From Kineosporia mesophila (GTDB lineage Bacteria > Actinomycetota > Actinomycetes > Actinomycetales > Kineosporiaceae), in the NCBI RefSeq assembly GCF_021129235.1, contig NZ_JAJOMA010000016.1:62001-126000 (forward strand): a stretch of 64,000 nt of DNA. The letters run 5' to 3'. Position 1 is the stretch's first letter. Every line of letters starts with the position of its first letter. The notes under the pieces are model-generated. The model searched no databases. It was given only the letters and a program-made list of their open reading frames with translations, and was not told where the DNA came from. Below, in pieces: positions 33,001 through 58,704 of the stretch. The position numbers were made by a program, and so were the translations under genes.

Positions 33001-35681
33001 GTCACGGTCACGTCGACCGGGCCCAGCGAGCCGGCCGGGGCCACGGCGGTGATCTGGGTGGCACTGTTCACCGTGAACGACGCGGCGTTCGACGTACCGA
33101 ACCTCACCACGGACGCGCCGGTCAGGTTCGCGCCGGCGATCACCACCGAGTTGCCCCCGCCGAGCGGTCCCCGTCCGGGGCTCACCGCCGAGACGGTCGG
33201 CGCCGCGAGGTAGGTGTACCGGTCGGCCGGGGTAAGGGCCGAGATGCCGCCGGGCGTGGTCACCGTGACGTCGACCGGGCCCACGCTCCCGGAGGGTGCC
33301 ACCGCGGTGATCTGCGTGGAACTGGTGACGACGAAGCTGCTCGCGGTGCCGGCCCCGAACTTCACCGCCGTCGCCCCGGTCAGGCCGGTACCGGTGACGA
33401 CCACACTGGCACCCGCCGTGGTGGGGCCGGAGGCCGGGGAGAGCGCGGTCACCGTGGGGGCGTTGTAGTAGGTGAACTGGTCGGCGCTGCTGGTCGCCGA
33501 GACGCCGCCGGGGGCCGTCACGACGATGTCCACGGTGCCCGCGGTGCGGGCCGGGGCGGTGACGACCATCTGGGTGTCGCTGCTGACCGTGACCGAGGTG
33601 GCGGCCGTGCCGCCGAAGGTCACACTCGTGGCGCCGGTGAAATCCGTGCCCGTCACGGTCACGCCGGTGCCGCCCGCGATCGGGCCCGCAGGGGGCGAGA
33701 CGTTCGTGACCGCCGGGGCGGCGACGTAGGTGAACCGGCCGGCGGACGAGGTGGCCGAGGTTCCGCCCACGGTCGTCACGGTCACGTCGACGGTGCCGGC
33801 GGCCCCGGCCGGGGCCACGGCGGTGATCTGCGTGGGGCTGTTCGGCACGAACGAGGTCGCGTTCAGGGCACCGAACCGCACGGCCGACGCCCCGCCCAGG
33901 GTGGTGCCGGTGATCACCACCGTGGTGCCCCCGGCGAGCGGGCCCCGGGTGGGACTGATGGACGTCACGGCGGGCGCGGTCACGTAGGTGTACTGGTCGG
34001 CGGCGGAGACCGGGGAGGTGCCGCCCGGTGTGGTCACGGTGACGTCGGCCGGGCCCGCGGTACCGGCCGGGGCGGTCGCGGTGATCTGGGTGGCGGAGTT
34101 CACCGTGAAGCCGGTCGCGGCGGTGGTCCCGAACTTCACCGCGGTCGCGCCGGTCAGGGCCGTGCCGGTGATGACGACGCTGGTGCCCGCCGAGGTGGGT
34201 CCGGAGGACGGCACCACGGCGGTCACGGTCGGCACCGCGGCGTAGGTGTAGAGGTCGGCGGAGCCGGTGGCCGAGGCGCCGCCGACGGCCGTCACGGTGA
34301 CATCGACCGGCCCCACACTGCCGGCGGGAGCGACCGCGGTGAGCTGGGTGGCGCTGTTGACGGTGTAGCTGACGGCGTTCGTGGCGCCGAACCGCACGGC
34401 CGTGACCCCGGTGAAGTCGGTACCGGTGACCGTGACGTTCGTACCGGCGGTGAGCGGCCCGGTCGGGGGCGACACGTTCGTCACCGTGGGCGGGGCGACG
34501 TAGGTGTACTGGTCGGCCGTCACGGCGTCCGAGGTGCCGCCCACCGCCGTCACCGTGATGTCGATCTGCCCCGCCGAGCGGGCCGGGGCCACCGCCGTGA
34601 TCTGCGTGTTGCTGTTCACGACGAAGCTGGTTGCGGTGTTCGCCCCGAACTTCACCCCCGTCGCGGTTGCCAGGTTCGTCCCGGTGATGACGGCAGAGGT
34701 TCCCCCCGCGGTCGGCCCGATGACCGGATTTACGGCCGTGACGGTGGGTTTGGGGATGTAGGAGAAGTCGTCCGTCGCCGTGTCGGCCGAGGTGCCGGCC
34801 ACGTTGGTGATCCGGATGCTGGCAATGCCGGTGCCGGCCGGGGCCACGGCGGTCAGGGTCGTCCGACTGACGTTCATCGCGTAGCTCGTGGCGTTCGCCG
34901 CGCCGAACGTCACGCTGGTGATGGCGAACAGGTTGATGCCGGTGACGGTCACCGTGGTACCGCCGGTCCCCGGGCCCTGGTTCGGGGCGATCGAGCTGAT
35001 GACCGGGGTGATCGGGGCGGTGGTTCCGCACTCCACGTGGGCCAGCTCGATATTGCCGGTGACCACTCCGGCCGTGGTCTTGTTCACCACGTGCACCGCA
35101 TTGGTGACCATGTAGTACTGGCCGCCCGAGGTGGTGTAGGTCTGCTCGTTGAACGTGATGTAGCCGGTGTTCTGGCCGAAGAGGTCCGTCTGCTGAATCG
35201 TCGTGTTCGGCGGGATGTTGCCGGCCGGGACGGTGTTCACCGGGAGCCCGAGCAGGGTCAGCCCTGATGCCTGGACGGTGGCGGTGGCCCCGCTCGGTGT
35301 CGCTGTGCACGTCGCCGAGGCCGCGGCCAGGCTGAGAACGCCCGCGACGGACAGACCACCGGAGTTGGCGGTCGAGGAGGCGGTGTCGGTCAGGGGGTCG
35401 GCCGTGGCTGTGCTGCTCATGGCCCCGAGGGTGGTCAGGCCGCCCACCGACCCCTGGTTCGCGCTGGGGGTGGCGGGATAACTGGCCTGGGAGTAGATCG
35501 TGTTCGCCGGGCTGGCCGCGCTGCCCAGGTCCCGGCCGCCGTAGGCGCCGGCTATCACGATGCCGGCGAAGGCGTCGCTGCGCTGGGCCGTGAGCGGGAT
35601 CAGCACCCAGGCCAGGAGCACGACGACCAGCACCCTGGCCGGCCAGGGTGCCGTTGTCCCCCAGGAGCGAGACGACGACAT
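24081..35681 (-). CDS. Giant surface protein with 40 IPT/TIG repeats and C-terminal membrane anchor
   Basis: A 3866-residue protein. The signal peptide (about 1-39, ending 'QRSDAFA') is followed by a ~190-residue N-terminal domain with two cysteines, resembling actinobacterial 'choice-of-anchor' modules. I count 40 tandem IPT/TIG immunoglobulin-like domains of ~85 residues, each opening with a variant of 'VTSVSPTSGPLAGGTTVTVTG' shortened or altered, and containing 'VTFGG..A...V.S.TQITA.AP'. A last ~100-residue domain precedes a Gly/Asn/Ser and Pro/Thr low-complexity wall-spanning linker. The end is a hydrophobic helix with 'ARRRRRKNDD'. No sortase motif is visible. Likely an adhesin or surface fibre. 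The start is ATG 35681 with a G-rich but weak ribosome site. Confidence 0.92.
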   Translation of the reverse strand: MSSSRSWGTTAPWPARVLVVVLLAWVLIPLTAQRSDAFAGIVIAGAYGGRDLGSAASPANTIYSQASYPATPSANQGSVGGLTTLGAMSSTATADPLTDTASSTANSGGLSVAGVLSLAAASATCTATPSGATATVQASGLTLLGLPVNTVPAGNIPPNTTIQQTDLFGQNTGYITFNEQTYTTSGGQYYMVTNAVHVVNKTTAGVVTGNIELAHVECGTTAPITPVISSIAPNQGPGTGGTTVTVTGINLFAITSVTFGAANATSYAMNVSRTTLTAVAPAGTGIASIRITNVAGTSADTATDDFSYIPKPTVTAVNPVIGPTAGGTSAVITGTNLATATGVKFGANTATSFVVNSNTQITAVAPARSAGQIDITVTAVGGTSDAVTADQYTYVAPPTVTNVSPPTGPLTAGTNVTVTGTDFTGVTAVRFGATNAVSYTVNSATQLTAVAPAGSVGPVDVTVTAVGGASATGSADLYTYAAVPTVTAVVPSSGPTSAGTSVVITGTALTGATAVKFGTTAATGFTVNSATQITATAPAGTAGPADVTVTTPGGTSPVSAADQYTYVTAPAVTSISPTRGPLAGGTTVVITGTTLGGASAVRFGALNATSFVPNSPTQITAVAPAGAAGTVDVTVTTVGGTSATSSAGRFTYVAAPAVTNVSPPAGPIAGGTGVTVTGTDFTGATSVTFGGTAATSVTVSSDTQMVVTAPARTAGTVDIVVTAPGGVSATSSADQFTYYNAPTVTALSPASGPTTAGASVVVTGTGLTGATAVKFGAGTASSFVVTSSTQITAVAPSGSVGPVDVTVTTPGGISALTPADRYTYLAAPTVSAVSPGRGPLGGGNSVVIAGANLTGASVVRFGTSNAASFTVNSATQITAVAPAGSLGPVDVTVTTLGGTSPTSSAGQYSYVAAPTVTAVSPTTGSTTGGTTVTVTGTGFTGASSVSFGGTPATGVITVSSDTQITAVSPAHAAGPVDVTVTAPGGVSATSAADRFTFVAPPAVTGLNPSGGAAIGSLTQVVTITGTGFTGATSVTFDGYPTIQILSVTPTQIQIRGIPPHPTGQVHVQVTNPYGTSDAIPADLYTYQGLPTLTSISPASGPTAGGNTVVLTGTGFLTTTDVSFGANAATYTVNSDSQITATVPAGSAGAVNVVVSTLYGLTGGSSPLQYTYVVAPAVTSVSPVAGPVGGGTVVTINGTGFSGATGVSFGGVAATGVSVSSGSLITVFAPAQAAGPVDVTVTTVGGTSAVVAGDVYTYVAAPVVTAVAPSAGPVSGGTTVVVTGIGFTGASSVSFGSTAATSFTVDSGTRITAVAPAGTAGAVDVRVTTVGGTSGVVGGDVYTYVAAPTVTLVAPSAGPLAGGSTVVVTGTGFTGASAVSFGSGSATSYVVNSATQITAVAPPGSAGTVDVRVTAVGGTSAVVVADRFSYQAAPAITGLSPTHGPVGGGTLVSITGSSFTGATTVTFDGIAAAGVIAVSTDTLIIAQAPAHVAGPVSVVVTAPGGTSAAAGFLYVGTPVVSGLSPLNGPIAGGTSVVITGTGFTTGSGATAVQFGGTNASTYTVNSDTQITAVTPPHGAGAAGVTVTTADGGTSAPGTFTYIPVPTVTGISPAQGPEAGGISVIVGGTGFTTASSVRFDGNSASFTVDSDTRITAVAPAGTGRADVTVTTVGGASATGAVDRFRYVGTPTLTSVSPTSGPVAGGTSVTITGTQFYGVTGVSFGGVAATSYTVVGPTQITATTPAGSAGPVDVRVTTGDGGTSSAGTSFIYVADPVVASLLPAGGATGGGAVVVISGSGFSGATAVRFGSVPAASFTVSSGSQITAVSPAGAVGTVDVTVVGPYVTSATSSSDRFTYAAGPTLTGVTPSAGPLAGGTVVSIAGTGFTLTSTVTVGGNAATSVQYVSPAQLSAVVPAGSAGPADVVVATPYGQDSLTGGYVYCTAPSVSALTPDAGPESGGTVVTITGTGFTDATQVRFGSSVATFTVSTDTRITATAPAGTGSVDVTVTGPGGVSVLSVADRFRYAPVPVVTSLSPVFGPTAGGTTLTLTGTGLTDVSSLAVGGSSVSFTVVSDSVVTLVTPPGLPGNAAVVVTTAGGTSAPISFRYADAPSVSGLSPDAGPLGGGTAVTVTGTDFAPGSTVTFGGVAAVVQYVSPTQLIADSPARGSAGAVNVVVATAYGTSATGNLFTYKVSPTFSGVSPGAGPEAGGTLVTVDGSGFTGASNVSFGGVAGTGLTVSSDTRITVFAPAGSGIVDVVVTAPGGVSAVSVAGRYRYAPVPVVTRVNPSSGPLSGGTSFTVTGSGFSAATDVTVDGVSVGFSLVDGSTLTLTTPSHAAGSVPVVVVTPGGTSAPVTFTYVNAPTVTALTPDAGPLSGGTAVTVSGTGFTLASTVAFGGAAAASVQFISPSQLIAVLPVRGSAGGVNVVVTTAYGSSGPGNTFTYTDAPTISSVSPGAGPLSGGTTVTLAGSGLTGASGVTFDGVAAVSYTVNSDASITAVAPAGSPGNAVVRVTTVGGSSTGVFRYANVPIVSGVSPVAGPEAGGTLVTVDGSGFFGATVVRFGAVAASGFTVSSDSRISVFAPPGTGTVDVVVTAPGGVSASSSADRYRYAPVPSIGTAAPDTGPLAGGTVVTLSGSGFIGTTGLTIGGVPVVFTVLNDSTITFTTPPGSAGSADIVVTTPGGVSAPVMFTYADIPSVHGVSPDEGPIAGGAIVTITGTGFGGATAVAFGGVPATGFAVMSPTQITATSPAQAVGVVDVRVTGPGGTTATSSGDRFTYRAVPVIGALSPSSGPVTGGTPVTLSGSGFDGATSVRVGGVAVPFSVADDFTIAFTTPAGTGAAAVIISTAGGSAGSIFTFAAAPTVTALAPAAGPLSGGTSVTIDGTGFTLASTVAFGAQPAASVQFVGPTRLVAAAPAVPSASTVSVVVTTAYGNSGAVSDFIYTDVPVITGVQPASGPLNGGNTVVISGFDFNSATGVSFGPVAAVSYSVISDTEISAVAPAQGAGPVDVLISGTGGTSPITIGGRYLYLAVPVVSSLAPDAGPTAGGTGVTITGTGFTNSSQVTFDGTPAGSVQFVSATELVATSPAHPAGIVDVVVTTAGGSSLLGGAFEYQVAPVLSGVAPSSGPLAGGTTVTLSGSGFTPASTVRFGSLPASVQYVSANRLDVVSPAGSAGAVNVVVTTAGGDSAPEIFSYLDIPGISSVTPASGPLAGGSVVTVRGSGFTGATALRFGALSATNWTVSNDTTITAVGPTPPTGGPVNVTVTAPGGPTPATSTSTYAYVAAPVLTGVTRVSGPVTGGTSVTIRGAGLTGATKVLIGGVAVTFTVQDDTTITAVTPPGSSGAADVVVTTVGGDSAPGTFTYVPVPLIVTLSPDAGPTAGGTTLTINGSGLAGGTVTVDGASVTPDSVTDSSIILRTPAHPAGTVTVRVATAGGAADSQFTYVAPQSTPVLSSVDPASGPEAGGNTVTLTGVGFTGATEVKFGAGPASFTVVDDSTVTAVVPAGIAGAVLVSVTTPNGTTGGTVSYSYVEPPVAPTVTGVTPAFGPVAGGTPITITGTGFDADTTVTFDGVPGSGVVVGASTTRLFRALPSGIRAASSTSLTVLTPAHAEGPAAVTVTNTAGSADAEIDFTYVPPLLEATISLEVEVNAATAVAPQGSLSAGLKVLACSIPNRGASSVAASAAFCRYTAPDQAGTDAFTMQITDAIGQTATQAVRITVVENDPGGQGTGGGGGNDGGGTGSGGGGGNDNSGGSGSGKPGSGGGSGSGGGGGNDTPGRGDPTIGVPTPTTSPVSPVPTTSPVPEAATPSPTPAPTVFNGALPKSLLIPLIIGIGALLVAVLAASTWYLWWPWLLLLLARRRRRKNDD
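25060..35030 (-). repeat. About 40 tandem ~255-bp units encoding IPT/TIG domains
   Basis: The DNA repeats with a period of roughly 250-260 bp, each carrying a version of the 'GP..GGT' codon block (plus strand: ACCGCCGGCC..GGGCC-type). Units have diverged to differing degrees. Those encoding the C-terminal half share phrases such as 'SPDAGPLSGGTAVTV' and 'PVVTSLSP', suggesting several rounds of block duplication rather than one. Confidence 0.85.
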
Positions 35682-46525: not shown

Positions 46526-46920
46526 ATGCGCTCCCCCGTTCCGGTCGGGCTCCGAGACCCGTACCGCGACTTCCCCTGCCAGAAACCGCGTCCCGTTGCT
46601 AATCGGTCACAGTTAGTGGTCTGACATCACGGAACGTACACCGCAGTGGACGTCGATCACCACTTGTGGCCCAACCGTCGTCCGCCTTGCTCGACATGAA
46701 TGACCCTTTCATCCGATGAATTTCGGCTTGATTGCCTCCATATCGCTCACGCTTGATCCGGAATTATTAGCGCTGAGTGACGATTTGCCTACCCAGAGCG
46801 CAAGTTGCCCGGCTGTGTCCTTGAAAAGAACATCAACGGGGACGGATGTGGCACGATCCGTGTCGTTCCAGCCACAATTTCCGGTTTCCACAACGTTGCG
46901 AGAAATGGGACGACACGAAA
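46526..46920. other. Divergent intergenic region, no gene
   Basis: About 395 bp between DUF4331 and the XRE-cupin regulator. The portion 46690-46900 is less GC-rich than the surroundings (e.g. GGAATTATTAGCGC near 46758). An open frame on the plus strand there (starting 46716) continues into the regulator in a wrong frame and is not a gene. Promoters for both neighbours are expected, but I could not place boxes reliably. Confidence 0.5.
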
Positions 46921-47559
46921 ATGGCGGACGCGGGGGTTCCCGGAACGGTCAGGTCGGTCACGCAGGCGCGCACGGTGCCGGCCAGCAGACCGGCGGGCAG
47001 TTTCGAGGCCGAACGAACCATCCGGATGATGGGCGCACGCGTCCGGCTGCTGCGCAAGCAGCAGAACCTCACGCTGAAATCGCTCGCCGACCGCACTGGG
47101 GTCAGCGTCTCGATGCTCAGCATGGTGGAGCGTGGCCTGGCCAGCGCATCGGTGGGCACCCTGGTGTCGGTGTCGACCGCGCTGGGCGTGCACATGTCCG
47201 ACCTGTTCGGCCCCGGTGACGAGGTCACCCGCTCCCCCGTCACCCGCGTCGACGAGCAGATGACGGCCACCACAGGAGCCGGCGGAGTTCACCGCATCGC
47301 CTACCGCGACCCGCGGGCCGGGGTGGAGATGACCGTGCAGCAGTACGTTCCGGGCGGCGCCAGCTCCGGGGTGCCCGAGCACTCCGACGGTCGCGAGGTC
47401 GGTGTGCTGATCTCCGGCCAGCTCACGGTCGAGCTGGACGGCGACGTGCACACCCTCAACCCCGGCGACTCGATTGCCTACCTGTCGTCCCGGCCGCACC
47501 GCATTGTCAACCGTGGCCCGGAACCGGCTCAGGCCCTTTGGGTGAGCCTGGAAGCCTGA
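46921..47559 (+). CDS. XRE-family regulator with cupin domain
   Basis: A 212-residue transcription factor. The HTH_3 domain covers about 35-90 ('VRLLRKQQNLTLKSLADRTG', 'VSVSMLSMVERGLASASVGT'), and the C-terminal cupin about 135-207 ('PEHSDGREVGVLISGQLTVE', 'LNPGDSIAYLSSRPHRIVN'). Members of this type control amino-acid, polyamine or detoxification genes with a small-molecule ligand in the cupin. The ATG at 46921 is preceded by a weak GGGA 11 bases upstream. The longer frame from 46846 lacks a ribosome site. The target genes are unknown. Confidence 0.9.
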   Translation: MADAGVPGTVRSVTQARTVPASRPAGSFEAERTIRMMGARVRLLRKQQNLTLKSLADRTGVSVSMLSMVERGLASASVGTLVSVSTALGVHMSDLFGPGDEVTRSPVTRVDEQMTATTGAGGVHRIAYRDPRAGVEMTVQQYVPGGASSGVPEHSDGREVGVLISGQLTVELDGDVHTLNPGDSIAYLSSRPHRIVNRGPEPAQALWVSLEA

Positions 47560-47760
47560 GCCCCAGCCCACCTCCGCTCCCCGGCCCAGCTCCCGCCCCG
47601 GCCTACCTTTCACCTTTCACCTTTCACCTCTCACCTCTCACCTTTCACCTCCAGCCCAGCCCTCACCCCGGCCGACCTTTCACCCCCAGCCCAGCCCTCA
47701 CCCCGACCCACCTCTCATCTCCAGCTCACCTTTCATCTCCGGCTCACTCCTCATCCGGCT
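47560..47760. repeat. Pyrimidine-rich tract with CCTTTCA heptamer repeats
   Basis: Nearly 200 bp is almost purely C and T on the plus strand with scattered A. From 47605 to 47651 it consists of about six tandem heptamers CCTTTCA/CCTCTCA. Longer 30-35 bp units (CCAGCCCAGCCCTCACCCCG) recur at 47651-47705. It sits just after the XRE-cupin stop, where a terminator would be expected. Such polypyrimidine mirror repeats can form triplex DNA. Confidence 0.8.
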
Positions 47761-48803
47761 CACGTCTGGTCTCCACCATCGCCCTCTTTGTCACCCGAGA
47801 CGGCCCCCGCCCGCCGCAGGTACGGCGCCTGCTTGGTCTGATGTAACAGACGATGGTGAAACTCACTCAGTGCCAATGAGTCACGGGCATATAGGTCGAT
47901 GCGGTCGGCCACTTCCGGCGGGACATCGTTGCGCCCTTCCCCGGCGATCCAGCGACGTAGCAACTCCGTGGGCTCATCGACTTTTGCAACCGGAAGATAG
48001 TGGTACAGCAACAGGTGGCTCATCACGTAGCGCCGGTCGTAGTCCAGATGGTTTGCCAGGAAATGCTTTTCCTGCGGTGTCAGATTGAAGTCGCGGCTCA
48101 GCGCCAGACCCAGATCGGCGAGGAAAAGGCTGCGGCCATCGGTCAGGACGTTGTGGAAATGAGCGTCGAAATGGACCATCCCGTGGGCACTCATGAAGTC
48201 CGCTGCCTCCGCCAGGCCTTGTTCCACCCAGGTCTGCGGCGCGGGATTGTGAGCCAGCCAGGTAGCGAGAGTCTGCGGCACGTATTCCATGAAGAGCACC
48301 AGGCTGTGCGTAGAGGCGGCGATGGCCTGCAACCGCCCTCTCACCGCCGCGGACCCTTCCCAGTGAGCGACGGCACCGTCGATACCACCGAACTCGGCCC
48401 CCACGTCCTGGGGAACAGAGTCCGGAAGGACGCGCCAATGGTAGAGCAGCGGAAACCCTGAGAACTGATTCGTCATAACCCACGTGGTACTGATGATGTG
48501 GGCCGCCAGCTCGCGCCAGGCACCGAAACCCGCTGACCCGATGCCGTACTGGTAGTACATCGGCAGATCGAAGAGGTTGGCAGTCGATCGAACGTTCTCG
48601 GGCAGCAGTTCCAGGTCGGTCATGGGGACCCTTTTGATGAAGACCATAGTTCCCCGAATCCGCGCCCGCCCCCATCGGCCACCGATACCCGCCCCCAGCA
48701 GGGTAGCCCCGGCCACAACCTCGCCAACCTGCCGGTCACTCAGGAGCGACAGATGAGAGGAAACGGACCGGTAGCCATTCAGGCGAGGAGTGCCTTCCAT
48801 CAT
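47760..48803 (-). CDS. Protein-kinase-fold phosphotransferase-like protein
   Basis: A 347-residue protein of the kinase-like fold. The Brenner-type motif 'GMVHFDAHFHNVLTDGR' (about 200-216) supplies the catalytic Asp and metal Asn, followed by 'LFLADLGLALSRDF' in place of DFG. An upstream 'VFIKRVPMTDLELLPENVRS' could carry the ATP lysine. Substrate unknown; it might phosphorylate a small molecule, lipid or protein. The ATG at 48803 has GGAGG 6 bases upstream, which beats the longer frame. Its base composition (about 60 percent GC by eye) is below its neighbours and its promoter is strikingly AT-rich, suggesting acquisition by transfer. Confidence 0.75.
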   Translation of the reverse strand: MMEGTPRLNGYRSVSSHLSLLSDRQVGEVVAGATLLGAGIGGRWGRARIRGTMVFIKRVPMTDLELLPENVRSTANLFDLPMYYQYGIGSAGFGAWRELAAHIISTTWVMTNQFSGFPLLYHWRVLPDSVPQDVGAEFGGIDGAVAHWEGSAAVRGRLQAIAASTHSLVLFMEYVPQTLATWLAHNPAPQTWVEQGLAEAADFMSAHGMVHFDAHFHNVLTDGRSLFLADLGLALSRDFNLTPQEKHFLANHLDYDRRYVMSHLLLYHYLPVAKVDEPTELLRRWIAGEGRNDVPPEVADRIDLYARDSLALSEFHHRLLHQTKQAPYLRRAGAVSGDKEGDGGDQT

Positions 48804-48821
48804 CAGAATCCTCCAATTCCA

Positions 48822-48870
48822 TTTCACTAAAACATTTTACATAAAATTTTTCAAAATATTTTACTAGCAA
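48822..48870 (-). promoter_or_regulatory. AT-rich promoter/upstream island
   Basis: A run of about 45 bp is over 80 percent A/T (TTTTACATAAAATTTTTC and AAAATATTTTAC), exceptional in this window. Several -10-like hexamers (TATTTT, TAAAAT) occur on the minus strand ahead of the kinase-like gene. This is also the kind of sequence bound by Lsr2-type silencers. Confidence 0.6.
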
Positions 48871-49061: not shown

Positions 49062-49261
49062 ATCCGTCCCGGCTACTACAGCACTCTTGCCTCAGCTTCG
49101 CAAGCTCGAAAACTCTTGCAAAATGACTCTTTCCAATTCACCCGAGCCACCTCTCATCCCAGAAATCCTCACGCGTCACTCCCGGTTTGAGCGGTCTTGC
49201 CTACGCAAAAATGACGTAGGCTGTGGACACCTGTTCGAACCAGGAGTGCGGGGGCGCGGTC

Positions 49262-51355
49262 ATGGGAGAAGCTCTGCTGTCGGCGTGGCCGGAGGTCGAT
49301 CTCCGGTCCCTGTCCGCCCTCGAACTGCATCAGGCCATCAAAAGCTCTTCCTGGTCAACGGGTTCGGAGAGCGTCTGCCTGGGATCCGTCGCAGCGTCCG
49401 AGCGGATCAAACGGAACCTCGACGCAACCCAGGCCGAATGCCTCCACCGGGCGGTCATTCTCGCGGCGCGGAGCACCCCGTCGAACACCTCCTACGACGC
49501 GCTCGACGGCATCGAGCTGGTCGGCAGTGAGATCGCCCTGAACCTCGGCCTGAGCAACCGCGACGCCATGGAACGAGTCGGGGACTCCATCGAGATCTGC
49601 GAAGACCTGCCACTGATCCTGGCCCTGGTCCGCGAAGGCAACCTGGACTGGCGGGCCGCGGTCTCGGTCAACACCCAGATGCGCATCGCCCTGCAACCCG
49701 GCACCCCCGCCTGGAACGCCGTCCAAAAAGCCCTGGCCGCCCGTCTGGCCGGCAAGAACCAACGCCAGGCACGAGACATCGCCCAGCAGGAGATCCAGAA
49801 GGTCGACCCCGAAGCCGCCCGCAAGCGTCGTGAAGCGCGCATGAAAGAACGCTGCGTCTACGCCAGCCCGCTACCCGACGGCATGGGCCAACTCCAAGCC
49901 ACCCTCTCAGCCGAGCACGTCATGCTCATCCACTCCGTCCTGGACGCCCTGGCCGACGCCTGCCGCAACTACTCACGCCGCGCCGGAACCCCCGACCCCC
50001 GCACCCACCAAGAGCGCCGAGCCGACGCACTCATAGCCATCTTCCATGCCATCCACCACAACCACCCCCTGCCCTTCATCCCCCTACCACCCGACCCCAC
50101 CGACACCTTCAGCACTTTCAGTGGTCGCGTCGTGCCACACGACCACCCCGACGCCCCGATCCCCTCCAAGCAAGCGACCCCTTCCGGACATGGAGCTCCC
50201 TCCGGGAATGCAACGGGATCGGGAACGCAGGCTTCTCCTACCAACCGGACTTTTTCTGGAGCACCGAATTCGTCCGGTGAAGCAAACCCGTCCAACGGAT
50301 CCGCGAGGGCAGGCGCACCGAGCAGCTCTGGCCGAGCACACTCTTCAGGCCCCACGAGCAGGCCAGACGCCACCAATAGGTCGGGCGCCACCAGTACGTC
50401 AGGCTCCACTCATGAGCAAGACGCCCAGGACCGGTCAGGTAGAGCGAACTTGTCTGACAATCGGAGCCTCTCGGACGCAACCAGTGCGGCCAATCACCCG
50501 CACTCATCCAATGATCGGGAACCTTCGGATGCTCAGGCCATGTCCGATGCCCCGATTCCTCCTCACGCCTCGACCTCATCGGTTCCGCCTACCGTGTCCG
50601 ACGGGGCGAATCCCTCCGATGTCTCGCAATCGTCCGACCCTGCCACGACGGACAACCTGGCCGTTATCGGTTGGTGGCTGCCGCCATCGCTGCCCAGCCA
50701 GCAGGGCCGCAAGCCCCACCTCGTCGTCACCGTCAGCGCCGACACCCTGCGAGGAGCCAACGATCTGCCCGGCGAGCTCAAGCGTTTCGGTGCTATTTCC
50801 GCCGACCTCGCCCGGGAGATCGCCCGTCAAGCCGGCCAGGTCACCGTCATCCCGGTCAACGGGACTCTCGGTCAGCACGCTCACGGACCGGGCGATCAAG
50901 CCCACTGCACCGAGACCTCACCTCGCTACAAACCACGTCAGACGGTCATCGACAAAGTCCTGGGACGCTTCCAGCAATGCGTCCACCCCGGCTGTGGCCG
51001 CGACGCCGCACAATGCGACGTCGACCATGCCACTCCCTTCGCCCAGGGCGGAAAGTCTTGCCCCTGCAACCTTGTTCCGCTGTGCCGCTTCCATCATCGC
51101 CTCAAGACACACGCCGCCTGGACCTTGCGTCTGACCCGCCCCGACGAGCCGTACCCAGAAGGAACCATCGAATGGCGTAGTCGCCTGGGTCAGCAACACA
51201 TCGAGATTCCCGAACCGCTACCTGGCGAACCCGACCGCGCCACCCGGGACCGCCTTCGTCAGGAGGATTGGGAGATGGAACTGATGCGCGTCGATCCCCG
51301 CGTTCGTCCTGCATCCGAAGTCCAGGAAAAAGACCCGGGCGAGCCGCCCTTCTGA
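49262..51355 (+). CDS. DUF222/HNH endonuclease (13E12 family) with central low-complexity insert
   Basis: A 697-residue protein. The DUF222 helical region covers about 20-280 ('YDALDGIELVGSEIALNLGL', 'GNLDWRAAVSVNTQMRIALQ'). A Ser/Thr/Ala/Pro/Gly/Asn-rich insert follows at about 283-460 ('SNGSARAGAPSSSGRAHSSG'). The C-terminal HNH domain (583-616, 'QCDVDHATPFAQGGKSCPCN', 'LVPLCRFHHRLKTHAAW') has its metal-binding cysteines and histidines intact. The ATG at 49262 is preferred to the GTG at 49223, which lies too close to a TAGGCT -10-like box. The family is multicopy in actinobacteria; a role in DNA damage response or mobility is suspected. Confidence 0.88.
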   Translation: MGEALLSAWPEVDLRSLSALELHQAIKSSSWSTGSESVCLGSVAASERIKRNLDATQAECLHRAVILAARSTPSNTSYDALDGIELVGSEIALNLGLSNRDAMERVGDSIEICEDLPLILALVREGNLDWRAAVSVNTQMRIALQPGTPAWNAVQKALAARLAGKNQRQARDIAQQEIQKVDPEAARKRREARMKERCVYASPLPDGMGQLQATLSAEHVMLIHSVLDALADACRNYSRRAGTPDPRTHQERRADALIAIFHAIHHNHPLPFIPLPPDPTDTFSTFSGRVVPHDHPDAPIPSKQATPSGHGAPSGNATGSGTQASPTNRTFSGAPNSSGEANPSNGSARAGAPSSSGRAHSSGPTSRPDATNRSGATSTSGSTHEQDAQDRSGRANLSDNRSLSDATSAANHPHSSNDREPSDAQAMSDAPIPPHASTSSVPPTVSDGANPSDVSQSSDPATTDNLAVIGWWLPPSLPSQQGRKPHLVVTVSADTLRGANDLPGELKRFGAISADLAREIARQAGQVTVIPVNGTLGQHAHGPGDQAHCTETSPRYKPRQTVIDKVLGRFQQCVHPGCGRDAAQCDVDHATPFAQGGKSCPCNLVPLCRFHHRLKTHAAWTLRLTRPDEPYPEGTIEWRSRLGQQHIEIPEPLPGEPDRATRDRLRQEDWEMELMRVDPRVRPASEVQEKDPGEPPF

Positions 51356-51665: not shown

Positions 51666-54600
51666 CTACTCGTTGACCGCGCGAGGACGTTCCGGGTTTT
51701 CGTCGAGCTTGAGGATGCGCTCGATGTCGGCTGCCCGTCGCGGCATAGTGCTGCGCGACTGGTCGGAGGCGGCCGGTGTCTGCGGCTTCTCCACCGGCTC
51801 TTCCAGGGGCGGAGGTGGCCTACGGTGCACCGCGGGCTTGAGCTGGTAGGTGGGCTTCGGTACTGGTACCGGGTCCCAGGTGTCGCCGGTGACCGCGGCG
51901 TTGCGACGGGCCACCCGCTCAGGCACCGGCTTGGTGGCCTCTGCCTCAGCCTCCGCCCGGGCGCGCAGTCGGGCCGCGGTCTGGCGGCGGCGCTCTGCGT
52001 GCTCGCGGGCCATCTCGGCGGCGTACAGGTGCGCGGCGAGCATGGTGAGCGTCTCCCGGCTACGCACGGCGGCCGTACGCGAAGCGACACCGTTGGCCGC
52101 CAGCAGGAGAGTCACAGCGATCGGAACGAAGAGGGGCACCGGTCCCACCAAGGCGAAGACCCAGGCTCCCATTGTCGAGACCAGAAGCACCGTCATGCTG
52201 CGCGCCCGACGTCTTGCCGCGACCCTGGCGCTCAGCCGTGCCGCGTCAAGATCGGTGGTGGTGAGCGTGGACTCGGGATCCGTTGCTTCGTCATCCGACC
52301 CACGCTGTTCCAGATGCTGGTCCAGGTCGGCCCGCTCGAGATTGGCCCGTCTCAGCAGGGCTTGGTCGAGGTCGGCCTGGCTGTAGGCCGCGGCGGTCCG
52401 GCCCGGCTGACTCGCCTGGTCCGAACTACCGGCCTGCTCAGAACTGCCCGGCTGACGTGAGTCACCTACCGGGCCCGTATCTCTGGCCTGACCCGAACCC
52501 TGTACCGGCCCCGGGCTGCCTGCCTGGCCCGAACCACTTCCCTGGCCCGAACCACTTGCCAGGCCCGAACCACTTGCCAGGCCTGAACCACGTCCCTGAG
52601 CCGAACCACTTCCCTGAACCGACTCCTTTACCTGGCCAGAACCGTCTACTTGACCCGAGCTGTTTCCCTCGCCCGAGCGCCTTGCCTGGGCTGAACCGCT
52701 TGCCCGGTCTGAAGTGTCTGCCTGGCTGGAGCTGTCCACCGGGCCGGAGCGACGGGTCTGCGCTGGGGCACCCGCCGGGCGGGTTCGGCCGGAACTGCCT
52801 GGTTCGCTGGAGGTACCTGTCCCGTTGGAACCGCCCGTCCCACCAGAACTGTTTTTCGGGGTCGCGGCGGCGACCTGGCCGATATCAGCTGCCTGGTCGA
52901 AGACCTGATCAGAGCGGCCGGGCCGCCTTGACGTGCTGGCCGGTCCCGAAGCACCGGCCTGTCGCGAAGAGCCGGTCTGGCCAGAAGGGCTGGTCTGGCT
53001 CGAAGCGCTGGTCTGGCTCGAAGCGCTGGTCTGGCTCGAAGCGCTGGATCGGCCTGAGTGCCGGGCCTGACCACCCTGACCCAAGCGGTTTCGGGACGAC
53101 TGCTGGTCGGACCCGGGACGGCCCAGCAGTTCCTGGAACGACACCTGCGCCACTTCGGCGCTCTCCGAGATCGGCGCCGAGATGGTGACCGGAACCATGA
53201 CGGACGCCGCCGGGGGCTCGACCACCCAGGCGGGTTCGTCGTCCACGTCGCTCGGGTCGATCGCCGGCATCTCGGCCCGGGGAGCTACGTTCCGGGAGGT
53301 GTAGCTGGGCTGCGCGGTGGGAGCGGCCTGGTCGTAGGGCTCACGATCCGACTGAGCCCCGGACGGGTTGTAGGTCTCGGTGTAGGTCCCGGTCTCGGTG
53401 TAGGTCCCGGTCTCGGTGTAGGCCCTGGTTTCAGGTAGGGAAGGAGTTACGGGCGCGATCTCTTGCTGCGCGTGTGCCTGCCGTGGTTGAGCAGGTTCCG
53501 GGGGCGCTTGCACCGTGGGCGGCAGTTGGACCTGGGGAACCAGAGGTGTACCGAGAGACGCCGCTCGATCCTGCGGCGCCGGCGGGTAGCTGTCCTCGCT
53601 GGTTCGGTCCGGCGCCGCCGTTGTCGTCGCCAGCGGGTTGTCCTGCTGGCGGTTCTCCGCGCTCTGTCGGTTCTCTTCGCCTGGGCGGTTCTCTGTGCTG
53701 GGTCGGCTGTCTGTGCCGGGCCGGTTCTCTGCGCCGGGTCGGCTGTCTGCGCCGGGCCGGTTCTCTGCGCCGGGCCGGTTCTCTGCGCCGGGCCGGTTCT
53801 CTGCGCTCGATCGGCTTTCTCCGAACGACGGCAGGGCGCGGGGGTCCAGGCCGAACCCGGCCAGTAGTCCGGCCTCGAGTTCCGCCATCTCTTCGTCGGA
53901 CGCCTTGGACGGTGCGGCCGCCGTACCGCCGAGCGTCTCAGGCGCTGTCCCGGCCTTGGACACCACCCCAGCTTCGGGATTCGCCTCGACCCTGGCGCTC
54001 ACAGCCCTGACGCTTACAGCCTCGGCACCCTTGACCTCGGCACCCTGGGCCGAAGTGGTGCCCGCTGCCGCCTGATCGGCCTTGACCTTCCGATCAGCTT
54101 CCCCGGCCTGCTCAGCTTCCCCAGCCTGCTCGGGTCTGCCGGTCCAGGGAGCTGCCGTGGTCTTCGGCGTGTTACCAACCAGGTCCGACCAGCCCTGCGC
54201 CTCGGGTTCCCTAGTTGCGGAAGCCTTGGAAGGAGCAGCCAGCCCGAAACCGGCGAGCAGCCCCGCCCCCAGCTCGTCCATGTCACCGCCGGCCTCATCC
54301 ACCGGCACCGGTACTCCGGCTCCAGAAACCTTGCCCCCCGAAACCTTGCCCCCAGAAGCCTTCCCCTCCGAAGCCTCGTCGCTCCTCACCCCGCCCACCG
54401 AAGCGGGAGCTGAGGCGTCCTTGGACTGGGGCTGGTGCGCGTCCTCAAGCTGGGAGGCCGAACCCCCGAGCCGCTGCGAACCGGTCAGCGTCTCACCCGG
54501 CTGGGCACTCTGCGGCAGGTTCATGGACGACCCGGTCAGCCGCTCGGAGAGCATTTTGTCGGCGGGGATGTAGAGCAGTTCGCCGTCGGTGTCGACGATC

Positions 54601-54803
54601 ACCCGCGGGGACGTCAGCAGCGGATCGCCGGAACGGCCGGAGCCTCCGGAACGCTCACGACGCTTCAGCACGCGCAGACCGCTGGAGAACCGATCGTGAC
54701 CGCGCGATTGTGACAGTTCGTCACGGCGCCTCACCCAGTGCGGCACCAGATAGGCAGCCCACACCAGCACGATGGCAAGGAGAATGAGGCTGCTGGGCTG
54801 CAC
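51666..54803 (-). CDS. sepX: SepX/GlpR divisome membrane protein with a very long repetitive disordered region
   Basis: A 1045-residue member of the SepX (Streptomyces) / GlpR (Corynebacterium) family, which places the gephyrin-like protein Glp and FtsZ-associated factors at the division site. TM1 is at 4-20 ('SLILLAIVLVWAAYLVPHWV'), and the conserved N-terminal part reaches ~90. Two close membrane helices follow at about 864-905 ('VLLVSTMGAWVFALVGPVPL'), then the 'DTWDPVPVPKPTYQLKPAV' motif (about 973-991) and a conserved end 'ADIERILKLDENPERP'. Family members are usually a few hundred residues. Here ~750 residues of Gly/Ser/Gln/Pro repeats lie between. It is in an operon with glp, galU, moaC, mogA and rimJ-like genes, as in other actinobacteria. 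Confidence 0.88.
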   Translation of the reverse strand: MQPSSLILLAIVLVWAAYLVPHWVRRRDELSQSRGHDRFSSGLRVLKRRERSGGSGRSGDPLLTSPRVIVDTDGELLYIPADKMLSERLTGSSMNLPQSAQPGETLTGSQRLGGSASQLEDAHQPQSKDASAPASVGGVRSDEASEGKASGGKVSGGKVSGAGVPVPVDEAGGDMDELGAGLLAGFGLAAPSKASATREPEAQGWSDLVGNTPKTTAAPWTGRPEQAGEAEQAGEADRKVKADQAAAGTTSAQGAEVKGAEAVSVRAVSARVEANPEAGVVSKAGTAPETLGGTAAAPSKASDEEMAELEAGLLAGFGLDPRALPSFGESRSSAENRPGAENRPGAENRPGADSRPGAENRPGTDSRPSTENRPGEENRQSAENRQQDNPLATTTAAPDRTSEDSYPPAPQDRAASLGTPLVPQVQLPPTVQAPPEPAQPRQAHAQQEIAPVTPSLPETRAYTETGTYTETGTYTETYNPSGAQSDREPYDQAAPTAQPSYTSRNVAPRAEMPAIDPSDVDDEPAWVVEPPAASVMVPVTISAPISESAEVAQVSFQELLGRPGSDQQSSRNRLGQGGQARHSGRSSASSQTSASSQTSASSQTSPSGQTGSSRQAGASGPASTSRRPGRSDQVFDQAADIGQVAAATPKNSSGGTGGSNGTGTSSEPGSSGRTRPAGAPAQTRRSGPVDSSSQADTSDRASGSAQARRSGEGNSSGQVDGSGQVKESVQGSGSAQGRGSGLASGSGLASGSGQGSGSGQAGSPGPVQGSGQARDTGPVGDSRQPGSSEQAGSSDQASQPGRTAAAYSQADLDQALLRRANLERADLDQHLEQRGSDDEATDPESTLTTTDLDAARLSARVAARRRARSMTVLLVSTMGAWVFALVGPVPLFVPIAVTLLLAANGVASRTAAVRSRETLTMLAAHLYAAEMAREHAERRRQTAARLRARAEAEAEATKPVPERVARRNAAVTGDTWDPVPVPKPTYQLKPAVHRRPPPPLEEPVEKPQTPAASDQSRSTMPRRAADIERILKLDENPERPRAVNE
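52500..52630 (-). repeat. 18-bp repeats encoding Gly-Ser-rich hexapeptides (GLASGS, GQGSGS)
   Basis: Plus-strand units such as CCCGAACCACTTGCCAGG recur six to seven times, encoding 'GSGLAS' and 'GSGQGS' at SepX/GlpR residues ~724-767. It is the third 18-bp array in this gene, in each case keeping the frame. Confidence 0.85.
52979..53045 (-). repeat. 18-bp tandem repeats encoding SASSQT hexapeptides
   Basis: Three to four copies of CTGGTCTGGCTCGAAGCG-type units, three of them identical, encode 'SASSQT' at SepX/GlpR residues ~586-608. This is a second, independent expansion within the same gene. Confidence 0.88.
53640..53830 (-). repeat. 18-bp tandem repeats encoding ENRPGA/DSRPGA hexapeptides
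   Basis: About ten copies of an 18-bp unit (plus strand GGTTCTCTGCGCCGGGCC and variants) make 'AENRPG'-like hexapeptides at SepX/GlpR residues ~325-388. Several adjacent copies are nearly identical, so recent expansion by slippage or recombination is likely. Confidence 0.88.
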
Positions 54804-54888: not shown

Positions 54889-55548
54889 TTACGTCTGTTC
54901 AGACCACCGAGTGTGTTGCTCGTGCTCTCGGGCCGCGAACACCCGTTGTGACCGGCGCCAGCGGGTGAGCATGCCGCCGGGTACGTCGTCCGCGGTGACG
55001 GCGAAGGTTGCGTGGTCACGCCAGGCTCCGTCGATGTGCAGATAGCGGCGGCGGATGCCCTCGGACCGGAAACCGAGCTTCTCCACCACCCTCAGGCTGG
55101 CGGCGTTCTCCGGACGGATATTCACCTCGAGCCGGTGCATGCCCAGACCGAAGATGCAGTGGTCGACCATCATCGCGACGGCGGTAGGAGTGATGCCCTG
55201 ACCTGCGACGGAACGGTCGACCCAGTAGCCGATCTGCCCCGAGCGCAACGAGCCCCAGACGATCCCGCTGACGCTGACCTGACCGACGAGCCGGTCGTGC
55301 AGCTGCACGGCGAGCGGGATCATCCGCCCGGCGCGGGCCTCGCGGTCGAAGCTGCGCACCATGGCCCCGAAGGTCAGAGGACGCCCGGCACCTTCCGGAT
55401 GGGTGGCTTCCCAGGGCGCGAGCCACTCGGCGTTCGCGGAGCGCACGGCGTTCCAGGACTTCGCATCGCGCCGCCGCAGGGGCCTCAACGTGATCAGGCC
55501 GTCGGACAGCTCGATCGGCCAGCCCAGACCGGCCCCGATCTCGGTCAT
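54889..55548 (-). CDS. GNAT acetyltransferase (RimJ/RimL type)
   Basis: A 219-residue N-acetyltransferase with 'ITLRPLRRRDAKSWNAVRSA' (N-terminal), the acetyl-CoA loop 'DRSVAGQGITPTAVAMMVDH' (about 125-144, Q-x-G-x-A/T form) and 'ENAASLRVVEKLGFRSEGIR'. Relatives acetylate N-termini of ribosomal proteins, but the substrate here is unknown. It overlaps mogA by 4 nt and is followed after 85 bp by sepX/glpR, the standard order of this actinobacterial cluster. Confidence 0.92.
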   Translation of the reverse strand: MTEIGAGLGWPIELSDGLITLRPLRRRDAKSWNAVRSANAEWLAPWEATHPEGAGRPLTFGAMVRSFDREARAGRMIPLAVQLHDRLVGQVSVSGIVWGSLRSGQIGYWVDRSVAGQGITPTAVAMMVDHCIFGLGMHRLEVNIRPENAASLRVVEKLGFRSEGIRRRYLHIDGAWRDHATFAVTADDVPGGMLTRWRRSQRVFAAREHEQHTRWSEQT

Positions 55549-56042
55549 CGGTGATCGCCGCCATGGATCTGCTCGACTGCGTGCACGAGCACCCCGTCGA
55601 GCACCGCCATGCCGTCGCGGCAGCCGCCCTTCGAACCGGGCAGGTTGACGATGAGCGTGCGGGACGCGATCCCGGCCAGCCCCCGGGACAGGAGAGCAGT
55701 GGGCACCCCCTTACTCACCCCGAAGCCCCGGATCGCCTCGGCCAGACCAGGAACCTCAAGATCCAGCAGAGGACGCGTCTGCTCGGGAGTGCGGTCGGTG
55801 GGCGAGAGTCCGGTGCCACCGGTGGTGAGCACCACGTCGTAGCCGTCGCTCACGGCCTTCTGCAGAGCTTCGCCGACGGGGTCGCCGTCGGGCACCACAA
55901 CCGGCCCGTCCACCGAGAAGCCCAGGTCACGCAGGCCCTCGGCGAGCACGGGACCGCCTGTGTCCTCGTAGACCCCGGCTGCCGCACGGTTGGAAGCGGT
56001 GACGACGAGGGCGCGACGGGGCGCGCTGGGTACCTCAGTCAC
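55545..56042 (-). CDS. mogA: MogA/MoaB-family molybdopterin adenylyltransferase
   Basis: A 165-residue MoCF-domain protein, adenylating molybdopterin before metal insertion. 'ALVVTASNRAAAGVYEDTGG' is the N-terminal strand, 'YDVVLTTGGTGLSPTDRTPE' the substrate-binding GGTG loop, and 'LIVNLPGSKGGCRDGMAVL' the conserved end. I start at GTG 56042, overlapping the moaC stop by 8 nt, which gives the family's length; the ORF can be extended upstream only through moaC. Confidence 0.92.
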   Translation of the reverse strand: MTEVPSAPRRALVVTASNRAAAGVYEDTGGPVLAEGLRDLGFSVDGPVVVPDGDPVGEALQKAVSDGYDVVLTTGGTGLSPTDRTPEQTRPLLDLEVPGLAEAIRGFGVSKGVPTALLSRGLAGIASRTLIVNLPGSKGGCRDGMAVLDGVLVHAVEQIHGGDHR

Positions 56043-56517
56043 GTCGCCAGTCACCGGAACGTCCACCGCTCTTGGCCACCACCCGGACACGGCCGATCTC
56101 GGCCAGCCGGTCTACCGCTTTAATCATATCGATCAGCGCCAGACCGGCCACCGCGACGCAGGTCAGGGCCTCCATCTCGATTCCCGTGCGATCAGCGGTG
56201 CGGACGGTCGCGGTGATCTCCACCCCGTGGTCCTGCACGTCGAGGTCGACCTTCACCCCGTGCACCGCGATCGGGTGCGCCAGCGGGATCAGGTCGGGCG
56301 TGCGCTTGGCCGCCTGGATTCCCGCGATCCGCGCCACGGCGAGGGCGTCACCCTTGGGCACACCCTCACCGCGCAGCAGATCGATCACGGTGGACGAGCA
56401 GAGCACGACCCCCTGGGCCGTGGCCTCGCGAGCGGTGATCTCCTTCGCGGAGACATCGACCATGCGAGCTGCCCCGGCCTCGTCCACGTGGGTCAGGTGT
56501 TGCGCGTTCACCGGCAC
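56035..56517 (-). CDS. moaC: Cyclic pyranopterin monophosphate synthase
   Basis: A 160-residue MoaC acting in the first step of molybdenum cofactor synthesis together with MoaA. 'HLTHVDEAGAARMVDVSAKE' at the N-terminus, 'IPLAHPIAVHGVKVDLDV' (the catalytic His region) and 'GIEMEALTCVAVAGLALIDM' with 'KAVDR' (active-site Lys/Asp) are all present. The GTG at 56517 lies 1 bp after the glp stop. No moaA, moaD or moaE occurs in the window. Confidence 0.95.
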   Translation of the reverse strand: MPVNAQHLTHVDEAGAARMVDVSAKEITAREATAQGVVLCSSTVIDLLRGEGVPKGDALAVARIAGIQAAKRTPDLIPLAHPIAVHGVKVDLDVQDHGVEITATVRTADRTGIEMEALTCVAVAGLALIDMIKAVDRLAEIGRVRVVAKSGGRSGDWRRD

Positions 56518-56518
56518 A

Positions 56519-57739
56519 TCATGAGCCAGATTCCAGCACGATGTACGGCAGTTCGTCACCCTCGCTCACCTGGGTGACGTCTTCCGGCACGATGACCAGG
56601 CAGTTCGCCCCGGCCAGGTCGGCCACCAGGTGAGATCCCTGCCCTCCGACCGGCCTCACGGTGGGCCCGGCGGCCGTGACCGTGAGCAGACAGCGCGCGA
56701 ACTGACGGCGGGCCGCCGGGGATCGCCAGCCCTCCACCACGGTCGCGGTCGGCGTACTCCGGTCGAGGTCGGGCCGGCCCGCCAGACGACGCAGGGCGGG
56801 CGCGACGAACACCTCGAACGACAGCAGGGCGCTGACGGGGTTGCCGGGCAGGGTGAACAGCGGGGTGCTGCGGGGCCCGATCGTGCCGAAGCCCTGCGGT
56901 TTGCCCGGCTGCATCGCGACCTGCACGAACTCCATCGTGCCGAGCTCACGCAGCACGGCCTTCACGGTGTCGTAGGCCCCGGCACTGACACCGCCGGTGG
57001 TGATCAGCAGATCGGCCTCCGCGGCGGCCGCCTCGAGCATCGACCCGACCGCCTCCGGGGTGTCGGGCATGATGCCACCGTGCCGCGCGACGGCTCCGGC
57101 AGCCTGCGCCGCGGCGAGCAGACCGTAACCGTTGGAGTCGTGGATCTGGCCGGGCTGCAACGGCTTTCCGGGCGGTACGAGCTCACTGCCGGAGGGCAGC
57201 ACGACCACGCGCGGACGCGGGTGCACGGTGAGACGGTCGATACCGACCGAGGCGGCGAGCGTGACGTGGCGGGCCGTCAGCCAGGTGCCCGCGGTGAGCA
57301 CCGTCTCGCCCTCACGAACGTCTTCGCCGGAACGGCGGATGTTCCTGCCCGGCGGGACCGGACGATCGATCCGGACCTGACGCACCCCACCGTCGGTCCA
57401 CTCGACCTGCACCACCGAGTCGGCCCCGGCCGGCACCGGGGCGCCGGTCATGATCCGCAGCGTGGTGCCGGGCTCCAGCTCGAGCGCGTCGCCGCGCCCG
57501 GCCGGGATGTCGCCCAGCACCGGCAGATTCACCGGACTGCCCGCGGTGGCCGAGGCGACCTCGGCCGCGCGCACGGCGTAGCCGTCCATCGAGGAGTTGT
57601 CGAAGCGCGGCATGTCGATGCCGGAGACGATGTCCTGGGCGAGCACGCACCCGGCCGCCTCCGACAGCAAAACCTCCACTGCCGGAAGCGGACCCAGGTT
57701 TTTCAGGCAGAGCTTGAGATGCTCGTCGACGGAGCGCAT
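56519..57739 (-). CDS. glp: Gephyrin-like molybdotransferase Glp (MoeA family)
   Basis: A 406-residue MoeA-type protein. 'DMPRFDNSSMDGYAVRAAEV' (about 39-58), 'IMTGAPVPAGADSVVQVE', 'LLITTGGVSAGAYDTVKAVL' and 'LPGNPVSALLSFEVFVAPAL' are the ordered family motifs. In actinobacteria the copy that accompanies sepX/glpR is the Glp that binds FtsZ and the GlpR receptor, so a cell-division role is expected besides or instead of cofactor synthesis. The ATG overlaps the galU stop by one base (TGATG); a GTG three bases earlier is also possible. Confidence 0.93.
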   Translation of the reverse strand: MRSVDEHLKLCLKNLGPLPAVEVLLSEAAGCVLAQDIVSGIDMPRFDNSSMDGYAVRAAEVASATAGSPVNLPVLGDIPAGRGDALELEPGTTLRIMTGAPVPAGADSVVQVEWTDGGVRQVRIDRPVPPGRNIRRSGEDVREGETVLTAGTWLTARHVTLAASVGIDRLTVHPRPRVVVLPSGSELVPPGKPLQPGQIHDSNGYGLLAAAQAAGAVARHGGIMPDTPEAVGSMLEAAAAEADLLITTGGVSAGAYDTVKAVLRELGTMEFVQVAMQPGKPQGFGTIGPRSTPLFTLPGNPVSALLSFEVFVAPALRRLAGRPDLDRSTPTATVVEGWRSPAARRQFARCLLTVTAAGPTVRPVGGQGSHLVADLAGANCLVIVPEDVTQVSEGDELPYIVLESGS

Positions 57740-58695
57740 CACTCAGCCGGCAGGCCGGCCACGAACTCCCGCAGGAAGGCTCGCAGCTCGGGACCCAGGT
57801 CGTCACGCTCACTGGCGAGCCGCACGACGGCCTTGAGGTAGTCGAGCCGGTCGCCGGTGTCGTAGCGGCGGCCCTTGAAGACGACACCGTAGACGCCGCC
57901 ACCCTCGGTCGCCGGGTCGGCGGCCAGGGTCTGTAGGGCGTCGGTGAGCTGAATCTCGTTGCCCCGGCCCGGCTTGGTGTCTTTCAGCACCTCGAAGACC
58001 CGCGGGTGCAGCACGTACCGGCCGATCACCGCGAGGTTGCTCGGGGCGTCTTTCGGGTCGGGCTTCTCGACCATGCCGGTCACGCGCAGCACGTCGTCGA
58101 CGCCCGTGGCCTCCACCGCGGCGCAGCCGTACAGGTGCACCTGCGTCGGGTCGACCTCCATCAGGGCCACGACACTGGCCCGGGTCTGGCGCTGGACGCC
58201 GATCATCCGGGTCAGCAGCTCGTCGCGCTCGTCGATCAGGTCGTCGCCGAGCAGCACGGCGAACGGGTCGTCGTCACCGACGTGGTGGGCGGCGCAGAGC
58301 ACGGCGTGGCCGAGGCCGCGCGGGTCGCCCTGGCGGGTGTAGTGGATGTCGGCCAGGTCGGCCGACTCCCGCACCTGCTCCAGGCGGTCCTTGTCGCCCT
58401 TGGCCTCGAGGGCGGCCTCGAGCTCCCAGGCGCGGTCGAAGTGATCCTCCAGCGAGCGCTTGCCCCGCCCGGTGATCATCAGGATGTCGCCCAGCCCGGC
58501 CCGCACGGCCTCCTCGACGACGTACTGGATGGCCGGCCGGTCGACGACCGGCAGCATCTCCTTCGGCGTCGCCTTGGTGGCGGGCAGGAAGCGGGTGCCG
58601 AGCCCCGCAGCGGGGATCACGGCCTTGACCACGGCAGGGCCGGGGTTACCGTCACCCAGGGGCGCGAGGTCGGCGGGGATGGTCGGTTCCGTCAT
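57739..58695 (-). CDS. galU: UTP-glucose-1-phosphate uridylyltransferase
   Basis: A 318-residue enzyme making UDP-glucose. 'AVIPAAGLGTRFLPATKATP' (nucleotide loop), 'KEMLPVVDRPAIQYVVEEAV', 'VLLGDDLID' and 'MVEKPDPKDAPSNLAVIGRY' are diagnostic. UDP-glucose also feeds the galT reaction at 40.8 kb. The ATG at 58695 is preferred over a TTG six bases upstream. Its ribosome site overlaps the end of the diguanylate cyclase gene (stop 9 bp away), so the two are almost certainly co-transcribed. Confidence 0.95.
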   Translation of the reverse strand: MTEPTIPADLAPLGDGNPGPAVVKAVIPAAGLGTRFLPATKATPKEMLPVVDRPAIQYVVEEAVRAGLGDILMITGRGKRSLEDHFDRAWELEAALEAKGDKDRLEQVRESADLADIHYTRQGDPRGLGHAVLCAAHHVGDDDPFAVLLGDDLIDERDELLTRMIGVQRQTRASVVALMEVDPTQVHLYGCAAVEATGVDDVLRVTGMVEKPDPKDAPSNLAVIGRYVLHPRVFEVLKDTKPGRGNEIQLTDALQTLAADPATEGGGVYGVVFKGRRYDTGDRLDYLKAVVRLASERDDLGPELRAFLREFVAGLPAE

Positions 58696-58704
58696 GGTCA
58701 AAAC

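Follow-up and report, generated by a model that had tools for sequence, protein, structure and literature searches.

The sepX/glpR gene and its surroundings

The window analysed here, a 64,000-nt stretch of contig NZ_JAJOMA010000016.1 of Kineosporia mesophila, carries at nt 51666–54803 on the minus strand a gene assigned to sepX/glpR, the product of which is an enlarged form of a known protein. The reading frame began with GTG, was open from end to end, and encoded 1045 aa, versus a typical, although not defining, length of about 300–450 aa for SepX/GlpR. Model NF050099 matched the product with 110.1 bits (E 1.7e-31) in two separate stretches, the two ends of the protein, versus a cut-off of 150; since this cut-off was passed by none of the 198 genomes searched from the order, those with SepX of typical length included, the low score of the K. 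mesophila protein says little. Models NF050100 and NF050101 gave weak N-terminal matches, and no Pfam or PHROGs family was matched at E up to 0.001.

The protein followed the SepX/GlpR plan (features of sepX given below are all on the minus strand). The transmembrane (TM) layout, seen in four genus members, consisted of an N-terminal hydropathy peak and one long, hairpin-sized C-terminal stretch. TM1 was placed at nt 54738–54794 (residues ~4–22) and the TM2-TM3 hairpin, a single long hydrophobic stretch, at nt 52074–52202 (residues ~868–910); an AlphaFold model of low confidence (mean pLDDT 41.3, six sequences) predicted helices at residues 3–30, 850–885, and 893–907. A low-complexity loop of 840 residues (25–864) separated TM1 from the hairpin, and the WDPVPVP motif (nt 51858–51878, residues 976–982) lay in the basic C-terminal tail. 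The loop was acidic (pI 4.88) and the tail basic (pI 10.28), with corresponding values of 4.45–6.12 and 9.78–10.99 across all six genus members. Thus, the original prediction of an enlarged SepX/GlpR with normal ends (TM1, double TM, and WDPVPVP) agreed with the family matches, the architecture, the glp neighbourhood, and the lengths in relatives, and for the ends with hydropathy, the low-confidence model, and alignment, while its disordered linker of ~750 residues was indeed a long low-complexity loop but one of greater extent.

Upstream of sepX, on the same strand, were genes for a GNAT acetyltransferase (nt 54889–55548, PF13302), a MoaB/Mog-type protein (nt 55545–56090, TIGR00177), MoaC (nt 56035–56559, TIGR00581), the gephyrin-like divisome protein Glp (nt 56519–57742), and GalU (nt 57739–58701; TIGR01099, 339 bits, cut-off 327). 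The glp gene, fourth upstream of sepX, exceeded the curated cut-off of NF045515 (531.1 versus 475 bits). Elsewhere, the genome encoded an FtsZ with the tail DDDLDVPDFLK and carried a gene matching dynamin-type GTPases. From the partial, sub-cut-off family matches taken together with the architecture and the glp neighbourhood, the product is assigned by orthology as the SepX/GlpR of the genus.

GlpR of Corynebacterium glutamicum (Cgl0885) is reported to have three TM helices and an acidic first and a basic second intrinsically disordered region (IDR1 and IDR2), and to be encoded close to glp in a conserved setting (PMC10522489), a plan shared by the K. mesophila protein; its IDR1, however, comprises 192 residues (27–218) as opposed to 840. 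Similarly, SepX of Streptomyces venezuelae (Vnz_14865) possesses three TM segments and two largely disordered cytoplasmic regions but is only 344 aa long (PMC8748795).

Length and tandem arrays of SepX in the genus

Open frames of sepX in all six same-genus genomes encompassed 677, 831, 894, 1048, 1068, and 1091 aa, corresponding to proteins of 675–1089 aa from the conserved start and to first loops of 443–884 residues; two further loci from the contig search were the same genes as those of congeners G005 and G007 and were counted once. Four other genera of the family, represented by one genome apiece (G001 to G004), had open frames of 320, 359, 375, and 454 aa; among the six best matches of each profile, TM1 was matched in G001 and G003 and the C-terminal region in G002 and G004, in likeness to the genus, whereas the conserved loop blocks described below were absent. 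For a sixth genus, none of three genomes was matched in the family-level search, and the order search found two with partial genes truncated at contig ends, one of which (L075) had a short loop between TM1 and TM2; genome G012 of this genus gave no SepX match. Among the matches listed from 198 order and 246 class genomes (35 and 40 of which, respectively, were without a match), most open frames outside the genus were of 270–620 aa, and the six largest were of 788, 692, 668, 639, 632, and 616 aa. These six had been candidates for an equally long SepX and were rejected, all including upstream read-through, with the longest true protein being of ~565 aa as judged by eye (G380); no non-genus relative among the matches listed reached the length of the shortest congener. 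Thus, SepX in all six genus genomes examined is two to three times as large as usual. Equal length in all relatives, named in the original prediction as an argument against expansion, was borne out by half: the protein was long in all six genus genomes, albeit variable in length, and was shorter in the other genera sampled. A literature search by title and opening of the abstract, in which subscription journals and bioRxiv were mostly outside the scope and the loop motif described below was not a query, returned no repeat-expanded SepX.

In the coding sequence alone, Tandem Repeats Finder (TRF) detected seven non-overlapping arrays covering 560 bp, with periods of 15, 18, 15, 18, 18, 18, and 54 bp, five of them on 18 bp or a multiple thereof. 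They included a 15-bp array of GGKVS type (nt 54325–54376) and 18-bp arrays encoding EQAGEA (nt 54094–54131, 2.1 copies), ENRPGA (nt 53650–53806, 8.7 copies), YTETGT (nt 53373–53422, 2.8 copies, 100% match), SASSQT (nt 52947–53047, 5.6 copies), and GSGLAS (nt 52523–52616, 5.2 copies). The last two were embedded in a degenerate S/G/Q hexad stretch (nt 52395–53078, residues 576–803) recognised by TRF and by self-identity, which over residues 576–818 was 0.35 at lag 6 compared with 0.08–0.16 at lags 2–5. When the codons of the loop were shuffled, any array appeared in 2 of 200 trials, with a best score of 55 as compared with 195 observed. A frame or assembly artefact was ruled out by the open frame, the 198 array-free shuffles, and the length of SepX in the five other congeners; the genome of one of these, G009, is in a single contig.

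The original prediction of three unrelated arrays, ENRPGA, SASSQT, and GSGLAS, with a shared 18-bp period held as to their places but not as to their number, and for SASSQT and GSGLAS a lack of relatedness is doubtful: each matches S-[SG]-[QL]-x-x-x, in registers offset by one residue. In the close relative G008, the homologue of the SASSQT array reads SGQAGV/SGQASA. The 18-bp period, although present in several arrays, was rejected as a special signal: a 220-kb sample of the K. mesophila genome contained 32 arrays, most commonly of 15 bp (10 arrays), 21 bp (6), and 18 bp (4), versus one array in a codon-shuffled sample, and the sepX arrays of other congeners had periods of 9–93 bp. The shortest congener SepX (L019, from G006) carried in its basic C-terminal tail a 15-bp (ETAAR)n array, for which TRF found no counterpart in the K. 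mesophila tail.

Between K. mesophila and G008, the protein ends were 98–99% identical (98% at the C-terminus), and all seven arrays differed. Amino-acid differences amounted to ~1.5% in the ends (5/335) and, approximately, since the alignment within arrays is partly arbitrary, to 25% in the aligned loop (156/619), whereas codon differences that were synonymous only amounted to 13.7% (46/335) and 14.2% (88/619), respectively; 35 codons (526–560, 94% identical) were excluded from both sets. Because the synonymous rates were equal while amino-acid differences were higher in the loop, the spacers look to be mutating at the same rate as the ends under relaxed constraint. Ten gaps separated the two genes, most of them at arrays and several of whole units. 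Those at hexad arrays measured 18, 12, 18, and a net 36 residues, while (QAG)n accounted for a gap of 15 and (ARSES)n for one of 25, the last two repeats being present in G008 and little represented in K. mesophila. Two gaps outside arrays, of 18 and 3 residues, matched no unit. The YTETGT array had a counterpart of 7.9 YSETGT/HSETGT units in G008 versus 2.8 in K. mesophila, and units varied further among the species (ENRPGA, AEGQQG, RRAEAE, GQAARG, and VPVVE). The variation in arrays anticipated between strains was seen between species.

Repeats were also observed elsewhere in the window. The hexapeptide array previously noted in a sugar permease proved real and was located by TRF at nt 6007–6197, in the N-terminal part of a 531-aa open reading frame (ORF; nt 4716–6311, minus strand) with an N-terminal extension of ~140 residues, largely of DAVKTE-like hexads, ahead of the membrane part. 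A DUF222 protein of 710 aa (nt 49223–51355, plus strand), with an HNH-like C-terminus as judged by eye, had a long Ser/Asn/Gly-rich low-complexity insert containing an 18-bp array (nt 50364–50409). Repeats of 7 bp (ACCTTTC) and 35 bp occupied nt 47560–47755 between convergent ORFs (nt 46846–47559, plus strand, and nt 47760–48827, minus strand), and long repeats with a 258-bp period, which may correspond to recurring domains within one large protein, were found at nt 31415–34656.

Conserved blocks and a motif within the first loop

In the six-species alignment, the loop was mostly unalignable except for three blocks, all present in the six congeners: residues 51–105 (nt 54489–54653, containing ..SPRVIVDTDGELLYIPAD..), the motif MAELEAGLLAGFGL, and residues 524–562 (nt 53118–53234, VPVTxSAPISESAEVAQVSFQEL). 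Block profiles matched none of 47 SepX loci from outside the genus, a zero weakened by the lower sensitivity of short profiles, while the TM1 and TM2-to-C-terminus profiles matched 45 and 23 of them, respectively. These loci repeat some genes and represent 38 distinct genomes by hand count, so that the absence of the genus motif applies to this set, in which C. glutamicum itself is not included.

The motif occurred twice in five of the six species. In K. mesophila, copy 1 reads MDELGAGLLAGFGL (nt 54240–54281, residues 175–188) and copy 2 reads MAELEAGLLAGFGL (nt 53847–53888, residues 306–319). Detection through a fixed core string might have been circular, a concern that was removed when rescoring without a core returned the same 11 copies in the six proteins, with 11–14 identities out of 14 and next best scores of 5–6; the best score in 1200 shuffled proteins (200 for each, first 24 residues excluded) was 8. 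The third position was Glu or Asp in all 11 copies. Up to four codons were used per position in the motif core, with a single codon for Phe. As the core codons vary, the copies are not recent duplications of DNA but are maintained by selection on the protein. When 13 genomes of the family were searched with an exact degenerate DNA pattern encoding EAGLLAGFG, nine matches were obtained, all nine within sepX. In 394 genomes of the class, the sole match other than the own one (G268) ran into a stop codon almost at once and was discarded as chance.

In the AlphaFold model, the only rise in pLDDT within residues 100–800 was at motif copy 2, where a short helix was predicted (residues 305–314, block pLDDT 49–59). 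A more confident helix (block pLDDT up to 85) was predicted ahead of TM2 for YSQADLDQALLRRANLERADLDQ (nt 52299–52379, residues 809–835), a stretch alignable in K. mesophila, G008, and G009 and not in the other three congeners.

Possible roles of the expanded loop

SepX is likely to be the membrane receptor of Glp, and the conservation pattern points, with about an even chance of being right, to an expanded spacer that presents docking blocks, among them the usually duplicated MAELEAGLLAGFGL. As the comparison of species shows, in-frame tandem arrays that continually arise, duplicate, and decay have lengthened the first cytoplasmic loop. What seems to be maintained in the spacers is no more than their length, their composition, and, less strictly, their acidic character, while selection preserves the three short blocks. 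Under the docking proposal, these blocks may be short elements that bind a partner at the septum (Glp, FtsZ, DynB, or Wag31), and the spacers might bring both sites of a receptor within range of the Z-ring zone, giving higher avidity at the septum. Glp is a candidate because C. glutamicum GlpR is reported to bind Glp at nanomolar affinity (PMC10522489). A long tether, as suggested in the original prediction, is plausible, but that prediction had overlooked the conserved blocks within the loop.

Several observations weigh against this reading. In C. glutamicum, the effect of losing Glp is partly reproduced when GlpR lacks IDR2 (PMC10522489), pointing to a site for Glp outside the first loop, and S. 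venezuelae divides with its 344-aa SepX (PMC8748795), indicating that length is not generally needed. Glp binds the FtsZ tail, and the tail of K. mesophila FtsZ is dissimilar to the motif. One congener (G006) has a single copy, copy 1 in K. mesophila lacks the second Glu and shows no rise in a model that is itself of low confidence, the loop of one congener is barely acidic (pI 6.12), and the genus is represented by six genomes only.

The strongest rival is neutral slippage, in which arrays rise and fade without function in a tolerant, unstructured loop of a minisatellite-rich, G+C-rich genome and only the blocks matter; this is less probable than docking but a serious contender, being compatible with conserved blocks and not exclusive of other readings. 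It accords with the differing units and unchanged synonymous rate in close species and with the commonness of 15–21 bp arrays, seen in the K. mesophila sample and in that of a congener with 82 arrays in 200 kb. However, the seven arrays in 3.1 kb of sepX represent ~15 times the density sampled in the K. mesophila genome, a comparison made post hoc, and SepX is long in every congener. Arrays per 100 kb numbered 14.5 in K. mesophila, 25 in G002, and 41 in the congener G009 (sampled loci L087 to L096), nearly three times the K. mesophila value. Because G002, of a sister genus, has a SepX with a 375-aa open frame despite its denser arrays, a high array background alone does not yield a long SepX.

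Alternatively, the AGLLAGFG helix with its GxxxG spacing could be a self-association or membrane-dipping element instead of a docking site for another protein. The motif is hydrophobic and glycine-spaced, the helix is predicted at copy 2, and two-hybrid tests have shown S. venezuelae SepX to interact with itself (PMC8748795); the invariably acidic third position disfavours binding to an acidic membrane, and this alternative is considered rather unlikely. Condensate formation at the septum, which might be expected from a low-complexity, repeat-rich, membrane-anchored, and mostly acidic loop combined with a basic tail, is very improbable, as the repeat units differ across species and no recurrent sticker pattern was discerned by eye outside the conserved blocks.

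A more specific form of the docking proposal, in which a one-site Glp receptor has turned multivalent, the two MAELEAGLLAGFGL copies are docking sites of a novel type, for Glp or for FtsZ itself, and the copy number of a repeat ruler tunes reach and avidity, is doubtful, and the IDR2 result from C. glutamicum, pointing to the other loop for Glp, made it slightly more so. If true, multivalent SepX would be a bacterial parallel of receptor clustering by gephyrin.

Fast-evolving in-frame tandem repeats in disordered stretches, often of extracellular or membrane proteins, have been described for Borgs (PMC9879509); those are archaeal extrachromosomal elements, whereas sepX is a division gene on the chromosome, and its arrays are interspersed with conserved islands. 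The enlarged SepX is of moderate interest, chiefly for its conserved, usually duplicated motif. In the available text of two reports (PMC10522489, PMC8748795), the contacts of the GlpR/SepX loops with Glp, FtsZ, DynB, and Wag31 are not mapped to residues. A loop scrambled apart from a few short blocks amounts to a natural mutagenesis experiment, flagging stretches of ~14, 40, and 55 residues, and shows how rapidly a divisome protein can be reshaped by repeats inside its gene.

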